The notes below the pieces were generated by a model. That model did no database searches, was not told where the DNA came from, and worked only from the letters and a program-made list of their open reading frames with translations. A DNA stretch of 64,000 nucleotides from Massilia cavernae. GTDB taxonomy: Bacteria; Pseudomonadota; Gammaproteobacteria; Burkholderiales; Burkholderiaceae_D. Below, piece after piece: positions 15,761 through 29,333 of the stretch; the first letter of the stretch is position 1, and each line of letters opens with the position of its first letter. Both the position numbers and the translations under genes were made by a program. The DNA is taken from the NCBI RefSeq assembly GCF_003590855.1, contig NZ_QYUP01000119.1, forward strand, positions 91,653-155,652, in the 5' to 3' direction.

Positions 15761-15912
15761 GATCGAGCACTGAGTCGATGACGTGATCGAATTATCCGTG
15801 CGGGTCGGCGCAGAAAAAGGTCGACCTGATCGCCGATGGCTTTCGACGCGGCCAGGTAGCCATGGCGCGCGAAACTGCTTGCGTCCCATCTCGTTATCAT
15901 GAATAATAATAA

Positions 15913-15930
15913 AAAACGAATATTCGTTTT
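15913..15930. promoter_or_regulatory. Operator palindrome before the TonB receptor (probable TetR site)
   Basis: AAAACGAATATTCGTTTT is a perfect 18-base palindrome 23 bases before the GTG start of the receptor. Its right half (GAATATTCGTT) recurs at 21356-21366 in the promoter region shared by the TetR gene and the D-aminopeptidase gene. TetR-family regulators bind such palindromes, so this regulator probably controls both island operons. Confidence 0.7.
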
Positions 15931-15953
15931 CTAAAAAAATCAGGAGACAAGCT

Positions 15954-18247
15954 GTGAAACATATGACAGTTCAAGGAGCAGCCGGAGCGCTGTATTGCAG
16001 TTCGGCAGGGCGCCGCGGAGGTTCGATGCTGGCGGCATTGCTGGTTTCAACCATGGCGCATGCGGGCCCGCCTGCGCAGCGTGCAGCCGACCTGCCAGGG
16101 GATGGGACGGTCCTTGCTCCCGCAGCGCCGGCGTCGGAGGTGGCGGTCGTGCACGTGACCGCGCAACGCCGACGCGAGCCCATCCGTGAAGTGCCGATGT
16201 CGGTGACAATGCTCGGCGGCGAAGGACTCGAACAAGGTGGCAATAAGCAGCTGAAGGATTTCGTCACGCTCTTGCCTGGCGTTGACTACAGCCAGGCGGG
16301 CGGCGGCGGTGGCGGCAGCCAGATCACGATGCGTGGCGTGAGCACCGGCAGCCAGGTGGGGCCCACGGTCAGCGTGTACGTGGACGACGTGCCTTACGGT
16401 TCGAGCACCGCATTTGCGGGCGGTAGCTCGCTGTCGCTCGACCTTGGCTTGTTCGACATCGAGCACATCGAGCTGCTGCGCGGTCCGCAAGGCACCCTGT
16501 ACGGCGCCGGCGCGATGGGCGGCCTGCTGAAATACGTTACGGTCGACCCGGACCCGACAACGCGCGCGGCGAAGCTGGGCCTCGACCTCGCGTCGTCCGG
16601 CGGCGGCGGCACCAGCGGCGGCATGCAGGCGATGGCGAATCTGCCGATCAAGGAGGGCGTGGCGGCAGTGCGCCTCGGACTCTACAAGCGTGACGAAGCC
16701 GGCTATATTCACGATGCCAACCATGGCATGCGCATCATCGATGGTTCCAGCATGCAGGGTCTGCGCGCGTCGTTCCTGGTTACGCCCACCAGGGATACGA
16801 CGCTGCGCGTCAGCGCGCAGACGCAGGAGAGCAAGCGCGATGGGAGCTCGGCTGAAGATGTGGACATCAAGACGGGCCAGCCGGCCTATGGCGATTTTCA
16901 GCGGCGTCTGTCGACCATGGAGCCGTTTCGCCAGACCTACGACCTGCTGTCGGCTGCCCTCGAATCGGAACTTGGCTGGTCCCGTTTTCATTCGATCTCC
17001 AGCTACCAGAAGGTCGATACCGATGGCCAATACGACGTCTCGACCCTATACGTCCCGCTGTTGGGACAGGCTGGCATCCACAACCCCGCCTACAGCTTGC
17101 CGTACACTTTCTACACGCGCAAGGCGACCCAGGAGTTTCGCCTGATCTCGCCCTCGTCGAAACGCTTCGAATGGCTGGCCGGTGCCTTCTACACGCGCGA
17201 AAACAGCCGGCGCGGCCAAGACCTGCTGGGGCTCGATCAGACGGGACAGCCGAATGGCATGCTGCTCATCTCGTCCGTCACGCCGTCGCGCTACCGCGAG
17301 AGTGCCGTCTACGGCAATGCGACGCTCTACCTGAGCGACGTGGTCGACGTCACGCTGGGGATGCGCCGCGGGCGCAACACGCAGGACGTGTTTTCCACGA
17401 ACACCTGGCATCCCTCGCACCGCCGCGGCGCCGGGCACGAGCTCAAGTGAAGAAGTACCAGCACCTAACCTGGCCACCATCCGCTACCGAATGAGCAAAA
17501 CGCACGCACGCGGTCTACCTGCGCGCGGCCAGCGGCTACCGGCCCGGTGGACCGCTGCCGGTTTTCCGCAATCCCTTGACGGGCGAAGTGCTGACGGCGA
17601 GCAGATTCAAGTCGGACTCCTTATGGAGCTACGAAGCGGGCTGGAAATCGGACTTCCTGCAAAAGCGTCTCGCACTCGAGGCGGCCGCCTATTACATCGA
17701 TTGGAAGGACATCCAGATGTTCACTTCGGTGGCGGGATTTACCGGGATCGGCAACGCGGGCAAGGCCAAGTCGCAGGGCGTGGAACTGACGCTGACGGCG
17801 CGCCCGATCGAAGGCTTGAACCTGAGCGCGGCGCTCAGCGCCGTCGACGCACGGCTCAAGACCGACAGCGCCGACCTGGGCGGAAAAGCGGGCGACCGCC
17901 TGCCCAACAGCGCCCGCTTTTCCGCGTCCCTGCTGGGGGACTACCGCTTTAGCTACCAAGGCCGCGAATCATATGTGGGCGCGAGCGCGCGCCATCTCGG
18001 CGACCGGGTCACGTCCTTCGCCGCCAGCCCGGGCCTGCCGTCGTATCGCTTGCCCGCGTTCACCACACTGGACCTGCGCGCCGGCACGGCAATCGGCCGC
18101 TACCGGCTCGGCCTGTTCGTTCGCAACCTTGGCAACGTCAGGGGACAGACTGCCGCGGCCACCTCGCTGAGCCCGCTGGGCGCTCCGGCACAGGTAAACA
18201 TTGTGGCGCCGCGTACGCTCGGCCTGCAGATGAGTACAGAGTACTGA
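15954..18247 (+). pseudogene. TonB-dependent outer-membrane receptor, frameshifted
   Basis: It begins at GTG 15954, seven bases after AGGAG, with a signal peptide ending near MLAALLVSTMAHA. The plug domain follows (VHVTAQRRREPIREVPMSV, LPGVDYSQ, ITMRGVSTGS, VYVDDVPYG, DIEHIELLRGPQGTLYGAGA) and then barrel strands. The frame is lost near 17400-17450 (stop 17448-17450). It continues in a second frame (NLATIRYRMSKTHA) and shifts again at a tandem ACGC triplet at 17500-17511, one unit too many. A third frame then runs YLRAASGYRPGG to the terminal aromatic strand ending STEY. Restored, it is about 760 residues, normal for the family. As written it is non-functional, unless the breaks are sequencing errors. 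Confidence 0.85.
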
Positions 18248-27760: not shown

Positions 27761-27780
27761 CCATCAACCGAGAACATCCT

Positions 27781-29275
27781 ATGGAATTTAGCATCAAGCT
27801 CAACGCTCGCAGCGCTTGCGTCGTCGTGGCGGTCTTCGAGAATATGAAACTGTCGGCGGCAGCGCAGGCGCTCGACCGGCATGGCGAGATCGCGCAGGCG
27901 CTGAAGTCCGGCGACATCAGCGGAAAGCCCGGTACAACGTTGCTGCTGCGCGGCCTGGCCGGCGCTGGCGTCGAGCGCGTGCTGCTGATCGGCGTCGGGC
28001 AAGAAGGACCGATCGCCGAAAAGAGCTTCGTTGCAGCGGTGCACGCGGCGGTCAAGCGCTTGGCGTCGATCAACGCCGCGCAGGCGACGATGGCCCTGCC
28101 GCTAGGGGACGTGGCCGGTCGCGACCTGCATTGGGCGCTGCGCTGCGTGGTGATGGCGGCGCGCGAAAACAGCTTCCGTACCGATGCGCTGAAAAGCCGC
28201 AAGGACCCGCCTACGGCGGGCGTGCGGAAGATCGTATTTGAAGTGCCCGCCAGCGCTGCGGCCAAGGCCGCGCTGGCGCAGGCGGTCGCGATCGCCAACG
28301 GCATCGATCTGTGCAAGGAACTCGGAAATCTTCCCGCCAACATCTGCACGCCGGGCTATCTGGCCACTGCGGCGAAACAGTTGGGCGGGGAACACGGATT
28401 CAATGTCGAAGTCCACGAGCGAAAACAGCTCGAAAAGCTCAAGATGGGCTGCTTCCTGTCCGTGACGAACGGAAGCACGGAGCCGCCGAAGTTCATCGTG
28501 CTCAGGCATATGGGTGGCGCGCGAAACGAGGCGCCCGTGGTCCTGGTCGGGAAGGGGATCACCTTTGATACTGGCGGCATTTCGCTAAAACCCGGCGCCG
28601 GCATGGACGAGATGAAATACGATATGTGTGGGGCCGCTGCGGTGCTGGGCACGTTCCGCACCATCGGCGAACTGGGATTGAAGCTTAACGTCATCGGCCT
28701 GATCGCAGCTTGCGAAAACATGCCTTCCGGGAGCTCGACCAGACCTGGCGATATCGTGACGTCGATGAATGGACTGACCGTGGAGGTTCAGAATACGGAT
28801 GCCGAAGGCCGCCTCGTACTGTGCGACGCATTGACATACGCCGAGCGCTTCCGCCCGAGTGCGGTGATCGACATCGCAACCCTGACGGGTGCCTGCGTGG
28901 TGGCTTTGGGCCAGCATAATTCTGGCCTGTTCGCACGTAGCGATATGCTGCACGATGCGCTGGCGGACGAGTTGTTGGCGTCGGGCCGAGCCACCGGCGA
29001 CACCGCATGGCGTATGCCACTCGAGGATGCGTACCAAGAACAGATCAAGTCAAATTTTGCCGATCTGGCCAACCTTGGCGCGCCGGGTGCTGGTAGTGTG
29101 ACGGCGGCCTGCTTCCCTCGAGAATTTTTACGCGCAAAAAAAAGCCCCTATAACGTGGCAGCACTTGGACCATCGCCCGGTAGCGGCCTGGAAACAGGGC
29201 GACCGCAAAGGGCGCAACCGGGCGTCCGGTTCCCCTCCTGTCGGCTTCATCGATCCGCCGCGCAACGAGCGCTGA
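27781..29275 (+). pseudogene. pepA: Leucyl aminopeptidase (M17), damaged C-terminus
   Basis: The ATG at 27781 begins MEFSIKLNARSACVVVAVFE, the normal PepA start. The catalytic domain is intact: VGKGITFDTGGISLKPG with the metal-binding Lys and Asp, DMCGAAAV, and NTDAEGRLVLCDALTYAE with the Asp, Glu and Arg of the site. After SVTAACF (29110) the frame slips. The usual tail (LENF...HLD...AAWKQGDRKG...GFIDPP) is found in another frame with extra bases around an A8 run at 29137-29144. The open frame instead runs into the IS end and stops at 29400. Aminopeptidase activity is doubtful. It is the last gene of the island operon. Confidence 0.8.
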
Positions 29276-29333
29276 AGGGGGGTCGCCAGGTCCGTGAACG
29301 GCGCTGGCATCTTCGCGAAATGCCACATCCAAA

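Follow-up and report, generated by a model that had tools for sequence, protein, structure and literature searches.

What might a bacterium gain from one island that combines a TonB receptor, enzymes for D-residue peptides and genes for tryptophan cleavage? Massilia cavernae (GCF_003590855.1, NZ_QYUP01000119.1) raises this question with ten genes at 15.9-29.3 kb of the window, that is, of the whole 64-kb stretch of DNA that was analysed. The genes follow one another in the order TonB receptor, M81 peptidase, epimerase, divergent TetR regulator, S12 hydrolase, GPH-like symporter, D-serine-deaminase-like enzyme, kynU, kynA and pepA. D-residue peptides withstand ordinary proteases, and to our knowledge complete catabolic routes for them have rarely been described. 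With a probability of roughly 60%, we read the locus as an accessory, TetR-controlled two-operon island that would import a small peptide, likely dismantled in the cytoplasm, which we predict to contain tryptophan and D-amino acids, including D-Glu. The computed basis for this reading consists of the gene set, its recurrence, conserved active-site residues, the modelled S12 fold and matching palindromes.

Gene content of the island

Genes were identified by Pfam/NCBIfam profile matches, with bit scores read against the cut-offs of the models. All genes and strands claimed by the first-pass annotation were present and backed by these profiles, with two frame breaks as a correction. The features are:

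15913..15934, + strand, predicted TetR operator before the receptor operon, with the palindrome AAAACGAATATTCGTTTT inside
15954..17450, + strand, TonB-dependent receptor, first part (Plug domain, 74.5 bits), followed by a frame break
17507..18247, + strand, remainder of the TonB-dependent receptor, read in a different frame (beta-barrel domain, 87 bits)
18256..19743, + strand, M81 (MlrC-type) zinc metallopeptidase (DUF1485, 253.5 bits; MlrC_C, 170 bits)
19731..20741, + strand, epimerase of the dipeptide or N-acyl-D-Glu type, enolase superfamily (MR_MLE_C, 100.4 bits)
20725..21306, - strand, TetR regulator, transcribed divergently from the operon that begins with S12 (TetR_N, 58.1 bits)
21351..21372, no strand assigned, predicted TetR operator between tetR and the S12 gene, an imperfect palindrome with GAATATTCGTT in common with the receptor promoter
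21400..23004, + strand, S12 serine hydrolase with a predicted Ochrobactrum D-aminopeptidase (DAP) fold (Beta-lactamase (S12), 189.7 bits)
22997..24379, + strand, GPH-like MFS symporter (MFS_2, 135.4 bits)
24372..25649, + strand, D-serine-deaminase-like PLP enzyme (D-ser_dehydrat, 75.6 bits; Ala_racemase_N, 33.5 bits)
25660..26910, + strand, kynureninase KynU, a second genomic copy (TIGR01814, 330.7 bits, above the cut-off of 246.4)
26921..27760, + strand, tryptophan 2,3-dioxygenase KynA, a second genomic copy (TIGR03036, 401.6 bits, above the cut-off of 390.7)
27781..29264, + strand, leucyl aminopeptidase PepA (M17) (Peptidase_M17, 372 bits), with a frame break near 29205

From the S12 gene through pepA, neighbouring genes overlap or lie 10-20 bases apart and are therefore read as one operon. 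The frame breaks fall one each in the receptor, where homology switches frame between 17384 and 17507, and in the leucyl aminopeptidase; they are either sequencing errors in the 201-contig, 94% complete draft (G000) or real lesions. The names of rho and IS-type genes were assigned by eye and are presumptive. The designation of the island as accessory proved correct, as a search across the genus (17 genomes, E<=1e-60) found the S12 gene solely in the window's own genome.

The S12 and M81 enzymes resemble MlrB and MlrC

The S12 hydrolase carries Ser-x-x-Lys, and its structure model aligned with D-aminopeptidase 1EI5 over 500 residues (rmsd 3.0), by far the fullest match, followed in length by the DL-peptidase Lip3 (408 residues, rmsd 6.7). 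In the model, the DAP fold extends along the whole S12 length with the catalytic residues in place. The protein differs from the Ochrobactrum anthropi DAP itself (S12, PDB 1EI5), with 21% identity and a score below the cut-off of the NCBIfam D-aminopeptidase model PRK13128 (147.7 versus 443 bits) though the fold is alike, and its D-aminopeptidase activity is putative. That S12 and M81 act on other molecules, such as acyl esters or an N-acyl compound, and that the island catabolises another class of substrate, is highly improbable: the esterase IS11 (7SPN, 381 residues aligned) is among the fold relatives of S12, and GPH carriers move mostly sugars, but 1EI5 is the far fuller match, and the epimerase, aminopeptidase, D-serine-deaminase-like and kyn enzymes all indicate amino acids.

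The M81 peptidase matched microcystinase C (7YLQ) with 304.7 bits, and its residues E11, D138, H140 and H162 align with the MlrC zinc ligands E39, D167, H169 and H191. MlrB was modelled on a D-aminopeptidase fold (PMC11070527), and the S12 model matches that fold across nearly its full length; the likeness of S12 to MlrB consists of Ser-x-x-Lys and fold, with MlrB taken from this description. The likeness to mlrB/C/D noted at first pass is thus sound, and the island, like the mlrA-D cluster of Sphingomonadaceae, groups a DAP-fold S12 enzyme, an MFS transporter and an M81 enzyme whose metal ligands are identical. To this triad it adds a TonB receptor, TetR, an epimerase, a D-serine-deaminase-like enzyme, an aminopeptidase and tryptophan cleavage. 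The absence of mlrA, also claimed, was confirmed within the island: every gene from 15954 to 29264 belongs to a family other than that of this ring-opening CPBP/Abi-type peptidase. Furthermore, MlrB has a signal peptide directing it to the periplasm (95.2%; PMC12474180), whereas none is visible in the island S12, whose first 45 residues hold no hydrophobic stretch (12-residue mean <=0.86), and which is for this reason predicted to act inside the cell. The island would work like mlrB/C/D, yet it is no mlr cluster.

Tryptophan is absent from most microcystins, which argues against degradation of a microcystin or cyanopeptide without mlrA, as do the missing mlrA-like gene, the missing S12 signal peptide and the score of M81 against the MlrC model NF041767 (314.4 bits versus a cut-off of 999). 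The MlrB/C/D-like triad, the cleavage of the Adda-Glu bond by MlrC (PMC4810221) and the occurrence of mlr-independent degraders such as Paucibacter (PMC8068134) speak for it; altogether we regard this explanation as very unlikely.

The gene set recurs in other genomes

A neighbourhood search had been proposed as the way to refute the claim that these genes travel together, and it bore the claim out, finding the core in nine more islands that share a single layout. Among 25 S12-anchored neighbourhoods outside the window, the receptor was present in 23, M81 in 21, the epimerase in 14, a FAD oxidase (either of two kinds) in 20, RidA in 10 (by homology scan; locus L015 holds one more by annotation) and kynU together with kynA in 7, near-duplicates (L039/L040, L044/L045, L095-L097) being counted separately. 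The nine islands, which we call class A (L014 on a Variovorax paradoxus VAI-C plasmid, L039-L045 and L093), are laid out as receptor-epimerase-TetR(-)-S12-GPH-M81, and all of them contain RidA and a DadA-like oxidase; unlike in class A, M81 precedes the epimerase in the window. A second island type (L049, L094) runs receptor-MFS-S12-M81-DgcN-epimerase-kynU-kynA-pepA, and L051 represents this type without the kyn pair and DgcN and with a split S12 gene. The catalytic positions checked were kept in the scored copies (26 S12, with one piece of the split L051 protein taken, 24 M81, 15 epimerase, 8 KynA and 8 KynU), the sole exception being E11 in the M81 of L012. The S12 tree was built without pieces below 440 residues or 200 bits (including the split S12 of L051) and without L052.

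Because the gene set recurs elsewhere, the island is more than a chance grouping of ordinary genes, an explanation ruled out by this recurrence together with two neighbourhood controls. In the first, neither M81 nor the epimerase nor any kyn gene accompanied six further S12 paralogues of the window's genome (stretches of 7.8-19.9 kb); there was a distant receptor match (27%) at one of them, L114, and another stretch, L118, was without an S12 match at threshold. In the second, 20 neighbourhoods anchored on kynA were drawn from other families, using the best-scoring among the 73 genomes that matched, and all of them lacked S12, M81, epimerase and receptor. In one of them (L163), a RidA-like gene adjoins kynA.

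Wider searches gave the following. An order-wide S12 search found the gene in at least one of 399 genomes, the window's own; in this and one other search up to three candidates were scored per genome, so that the counts are lower bounds. Scanning genome contigs for S12 yielded one distant match (Leucobacter, 25%), with nothing but S12 at that locus. On plasmids, 14 records matched S12, of which four neighbourhoods were examined (H1, H2, H3, H11), and 299 matched M81, of which two were examined (Variovorax, H16); by annotation there was no such island in H11 (Massilia forsythiae, a weak match), and an island of this kind was absent from H16 (Roseomonas). The epimerase search matched 135 records, and eight neighbourhoods were examined.

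Receptor, regulator and predicted operators

The first part of the receptor shares 49-52% identity with class A relatives and the second part 56-60% with two relatives. TetR is 40-45% identical to the TetR at the same place in nine relatives. Allowing one mismatch at most on both strands of the window, GAATATTCGTT occurred only at the receptor-side site and at 21356, with 0.30 occurrences expected, and a matching palindrome lies ahead of each operon, in the window as well as in 9/9 class A relatives. The operator consensus of the relatives was derived from the same loci on which it was then run; the window contains no site of that form, and its own version was tested apart.

Uptake through a TonB receptor would also suit a peptidic siderophore with D-residues, imported by receptor and MFS transporter and dismantled by S12 and M81 to free its iron. 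An ECF sigma factor adjoins the receptor in L049, L051 and L094, and genes for TonB, ExbB and ExbD lie next to the Variovorax island, in keeping with this idea. We nevertheless consider it quite improbable, since neither a siderophore-interacting protein nor a reductase nor an iron regulator is encoded in the island, both promoters hold predicted TetR operators, and tryptophan breakdown fits nowhere.

The epimerase and D-Glu

The epimerase scored below both NCBIfam cut-offs (DgcA NF042940, 340.4/400; YcjG, 227/343 bits), the DgcA model being the nearest. All 15 copies kept the eight Lys/Asp/Glu positions checked, with the enolase-superfamily catalytic residues and the C-terminal DxD. In the second island type, DgcN adjoins the epimerase (L049, L094; 457.8 bits versus a cut-off of 480), which points to D-Glu, and sphingomonad plasmid clusters (L053, L054, L056) likewise hold both DgcN and epimerase. 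DgcN (DUF1611, PF07755) had no match in the 94% complete window genome, and a DgcN-DgcA pathway was consequently dropped for the window; a search of 18 genomes or records found PF07755 in two, G720 (within its island) and G653.

Tryptophan genes were recruited to such islands

KynU and KynA matched 1QZ9 and 2NOX with 637 and 425 bits, and KynA bears motifs that are presumably those of tryptophan dioxygenase. The genome's other kynU lies beside its other kynA on contig C26, and the latter is 76% identical to the island KynA. The pair kynU-kynA is missing from 18/25 S12-anchored neighbourhoods, so that tryptophan is no requirement of the core. For the eight island pairs, descent from one origin was rejected (AU p=3.5e-48; 36 rows, 8 of them from islands), as in earlier AU tests (p 0.0001, 22 rows including 6 from islands; p 0.0019, 24 rows including 8). 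The window pair clusters with those of L049 and L094 (84/78 in the 24-row tree, 97/93 in the 36-row tree), and the five class A pairs cluster, in the latter tree, with a pair from a different family, L152 (96/96). The later trees leave out two third-kind kynA copies (L079, L080), and the 36-row tree is further without three housekeeping rows (L061, L066, L069) and five of the 20 other-family loci, which gave no KynU match. Judged from these trees, kynU-kynA entered such islands at least two times independently. The window's own genome has no KynB of the TIGR03035 kind, but among 18 genomes or records this model passed its cut-off in G752 alone, and the absence therefore says little about the island.

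These results bear on murein-peptide recycling, in which L-Ala-D-Glu-type muropeptides would be taken up and split and the tryptophan genes would be passengers. An epimerase of the L-Ala-D/L-Glu or DgcA kind, DgcN in two related islands and the many neighbourhoods without kynU-kynA favour such recycling. Murein contains no tryptophan, however, the pair was gained repeatedly and inside the operon, and we know of neither a TonB receptor nor an M81 enzyme as part of murein recycling; we therefore hold this explanation to be unlikely. The dedicated peptide-catabolic system proposed at first pass is supported by recurrence and kyn recruitment; tryptophan genes in only 7/25 relatives and a deaminase specific to the window weaken it.

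The D-serine-deaminase-like enzyme has full-length homology to 3GWQ, named a D-serine deaminase (269 bits, residues 15-426). No operon of the 25 relatives includes its gene, the single match lying roughly 6.5 kb beyond S12 in L050, and class A relatives have RidA (79.7/106) and a FAD oxidase in its place. One of the two oxidase kinds scored 156/383 against D-amino acid dehydrogenase and the other weakly matched several amine-oxidase models; both are putative D-amino-acid enzymes. The GPH-like symporter (114/231 against the GPH model TIGR00792) has copies 3' of S12 in nine relatives (43-48% identity). Island PepA copies (the window and three others) form one side of a branch against seven other copies (100/99), and the window genome has a further pepA outside the island.

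A predicted route for peptide catabolism

In the peptide-catabolic reading that we prefer, which predicts complete degradation of the peptide, TetR would release both operons once the peptide or a product binds. The peptide would cross the outer membrane through the TonB receptor and the inner membrane through the GPH-like symporter. Inside the cell, S12 would remove N-terminal D-residues, and M81 would open, MlrC-like, a bond adjoining an acidic or N-acylated residue. The epimerase would convert L-Xaa-D-Glu type dipeptides to L-Xaa-L-Glu, and PepA would split the all-L dipeptides. Freed D-amino acids would be deaminated by the D-serine-deaminase-like enzyme (in relatives by FAD oxidase and RidA), and KynA and KynU would turn freed tryptophan, or kynurenine, into anthranilate and alanine.

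More tentatively, and with odds clearly against it, such islands may represent horizontally spread catabolism of non-ribosomal (lipo)peptides with tryptophan beside a D-residue such as D-Glu, by which hosts eat, and thereby neutralise, peptide antibiotics or toxins; a kynU-kynA-pepA cassette would have been added to more than one S12-M81 backbone as an adaptation to substrates with tryptophan. Were the substrate a natural antibiotic or toxin, the islands would be a catabolic route to its removal. Among the matches listed, the open-access full-text literature held no description of this gene combination, and the island looks like an undescribed way to eat protease-resistant natural peptides. 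That genes for tryptophan cleavage were recruited at least twice, independently, hints at the substrate before its identification. The gene set is defined and testable, has its own regulator and predicted operators, and is carried by at least one cultured strain with a name, V. paradoxus VAI-C. On plasmid unnamed1, this strain carries a cluster (L015) that differs from the island in having no match to the receptor, M81, epimerase or kyn genes; it shares an S12 relative (39%), contains membrane dipeptidase and RidA, and has annotated RidA, FAD-binding oxidoreductase and MFS transporter genes near S12.

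Island genes and their surroundings

Gene families were assigned with Pfam and NCBIfam, which bore out the first-pass annotation's gene list in two operons around one TetR gene. The ten genes span window positions 15.9-29.3 kb, the operons flank the single tetR, and the genes of operon 2 overlap or are 10-20 bases apart.

Operon 1: TonB-dependent receptor, M81 peptidase, enolase-superfamily epimerase
Operon 2, divergent from tetR: S12 hydrolase, GPH-like symporter, D-serine-deaminase-like (DSD-like) PLP enzyme, kynureninase (kynU), tryptophan 2,3-dioxygenase (kynA), leucyl aminopeptidase (pepA)

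The receptor gene has a frame change between 17384 and 17507, and the leucyl aminopeptidase gene one near 29205. We regard the island as accessory because the S12 gene occurs in 1/17 genomes of the genus, the window's own, and not on account of base composition, which showed no contrast between island and surroundings. Upstream lies a gene that we take, by eye, to be rho; downstream come a response regulator and, at 30746-37553, ada, a DNA-alkylation oxygenase, an amidohydrolase, and urocanase together with an aromatic amino acid lyase. On another contig of this genome (C28, 8112-9995; L121), a distant second M81 gene (31%) adjoins a PepA-like N-terminal piece.

The gene set recurs in other genomes

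At E<=1e-60, S12 was found in at least 17 of 392 genomes of the family and, for one other genus, in at least 10 of 74, five genomes being common to both sets; these are lower bounds, as the large genome searches scored few candidates per genome. For 25 S12 loci other than the window's own, from relatives that are not all independent, we scanned the surrounding 15.8-29.6 kb with window proteins and accessory references. The genes had been predicted to travel together, and this held for the receptor (23 loci), M81 (21) and the epimerase (14); a FAD oxidase was present in 20, RidA in 10, a BioF/Kbl-type enzyme in five, pepA in three and a DSD-like gene in one (L050, ~6.5 kb past S12). Just seven loci carried kynU and kynA, a weakness for the tryptophan reading.

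Nine loci (class A: L014, L039-L045, L093) share the layout receptor-epimerase-TetR(-)-S12-GPH-M81, followed in 9/9 by RidA and a DadA-like FAD oxidase; kynU-kynA is inserted before these two in L039, L040, L041, L043 and L093. The BioF/Kbl-type PLP enzyme, in L014, L041, L042, L043 and L093, sits after M81 (18364-19491 in L014). A second layout, ECF sigma(-)-receptor-MFS-S12-M81-(DgcN)-epimerase-(kynU-kynA)-pepA, is complete in L049 and L094, and occurs in L051 without DgcN and kyn genes. Receptor, S12 and M81 accompany a different FAD oxidase in L012, L013, L046, L047, L050 and L095-L098; L048 has receptor, S12 and the oxidase of the L012/L013 group, L015 S12 and that oxidase, and L052 S12 only. 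The relatives' FAD oxidases and RidA score under NCBIfam cut-offs.

L016, on a conjugative plasmid of Sphingobium V4, has TetR, receptor, S12, MFS and epimerase; its flanks (4826-7354 and 17039-19142) presumably hold IS66-type and transposase/integrase genes, judged by eye, hinting at mobility. S12 has an internal stop in L088 (G783) and is in two pieces in L051 (G623), so that these loci may decay in places. In L050 (G753, 13269-18376), the S12 locus is followed by a 1220-residue pyruvate/ferredoxin-oxidoreductase-type protein and the DSD-like gene.

Both operons are likely under TetR control

Allowing one mismatch, GAATATTCGTT had three matches in the window against 0.30 expected (three in 0/100 shuffles), none beyond the receptor front and the tetR-S12 gap.

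15913-15934, both strands: predicted TetR operator, receptor promoter, GAATATTCGTT match
21351-21372: predicted TetR operator between tetR and S12, GAATATTCGTT match

All nine class A relatives have a palindrome of different consensus, ATGAATGATCGTTCATT (<=4 mismatches), at both places, which account for 18 of its 19 distinct sites within these loci; this form is absent from the window. In 8/9 class A receptor promoters the palindrome lies directly 3' of a CATAAT-like -10 box (by eye). Given palindromes at both promoters, the two operons likely form a single TetR regulon.

Origin of the tryptophan genes and pepA

A 36-row tree built from kynU+kynA grouped the class A island pairs with an other-family pair, L152 (96/96); the window pair joined those of L049 and L094 (97/93), nested in a group otherwise made up of the family's non-island pairs. 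A branch with 100/99 support parted the four island pepA genes from seven other copies. The window's S12 (100/99) and epimerase (95/97), however, fell within class A. By these groupings, the window looks like a mosaic of a class A chassis and a kynU-kynA-pepA cassette of the second type.

A common origin of the eight island kynU-kynA pairs was rejected (p-AU 3.5e-48, 36-row tree), and smaller sets rejected it too (p-AU 0.0001 with six island rows among 22, 0.0019 with eight among 24). The window's genome has another kynU-kynA pair (C26, 76% identical) and another pepA. Across 18 genomes or records, 6/24 kynA matches were island-located. As a reverse control, 0/20 kynA-anchored other-family neighbourhoods, from the best-scoring of 73 matching genomes, contained S12, M81, epimerase or receptor; one (L163, G328:C35) has two kynA genes 8 kb apart, one adjoining a RidA-like gene. 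The kynA copies of L079 and L080 (G748, G765) are divergent (52% identical) and form a third kind, belonging neither to the island group nor to the housekeeping one.

Proposed route and comparison with the mlr cluster

Families, active sites and neighbourhood suggest a likely route. The peptide would enter through the receptor and then the symporter; S12 would remove N-terminal D-residues, and M81 would cleave where a residue is acidic or blocked. L-Xaa-D-Glu would be converted by the epimerase to L-Xaa-L-Glu, which PepA would split. D-amino acids would be deaminated by the DSD-like enzyme in the window and by FAD oxidase and RidA in relatives, and KynA and KynU would turn tryptophan into anthranilate and alanine.

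As the first-pass annotation saw, the island shares the S12, M81 and MFS triad of mlrB/C/D and is without mlrA. MlrB was itself modelled on 1EI5, the DAP of Ochrobactrum anthropi (PMC11070527). By analogy the island would work like mlrB/C/D, yet it is no member of the mlr cluster, since it lacks mlrA, its S12 has no visible signal peptide and its M81 scores far under the MlrC cut-off. Among the matches listed, full texts of open papers held no description of the combination.

DgcN adjoins the epimerase in L049 (457.8 of 480 bits), in L094 and in sphingomonad plasmid clusters, which points to D-Glu. DgcN had no match in the window's genome, where the form used would need to be a dipeptide or N-acylated. 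The plasmid clusters L053, L054 and L056 (Croceicoccus, Novosphingobium and Sphingobium) run XRE regulator-serine hydrolase-DgcA-like epimerase-(peptide MFS, 2/3)-TonB receptor-DUF1611 (DgcN)-unknown-serine hydrolase and look like clusters for D-Glu peptide utilisation. A similar XRE-S12-like-epimerase-receptor-DgcN set occurs in the window's family (L099, G653:C6), on a different contig from that genome's S12 locus.
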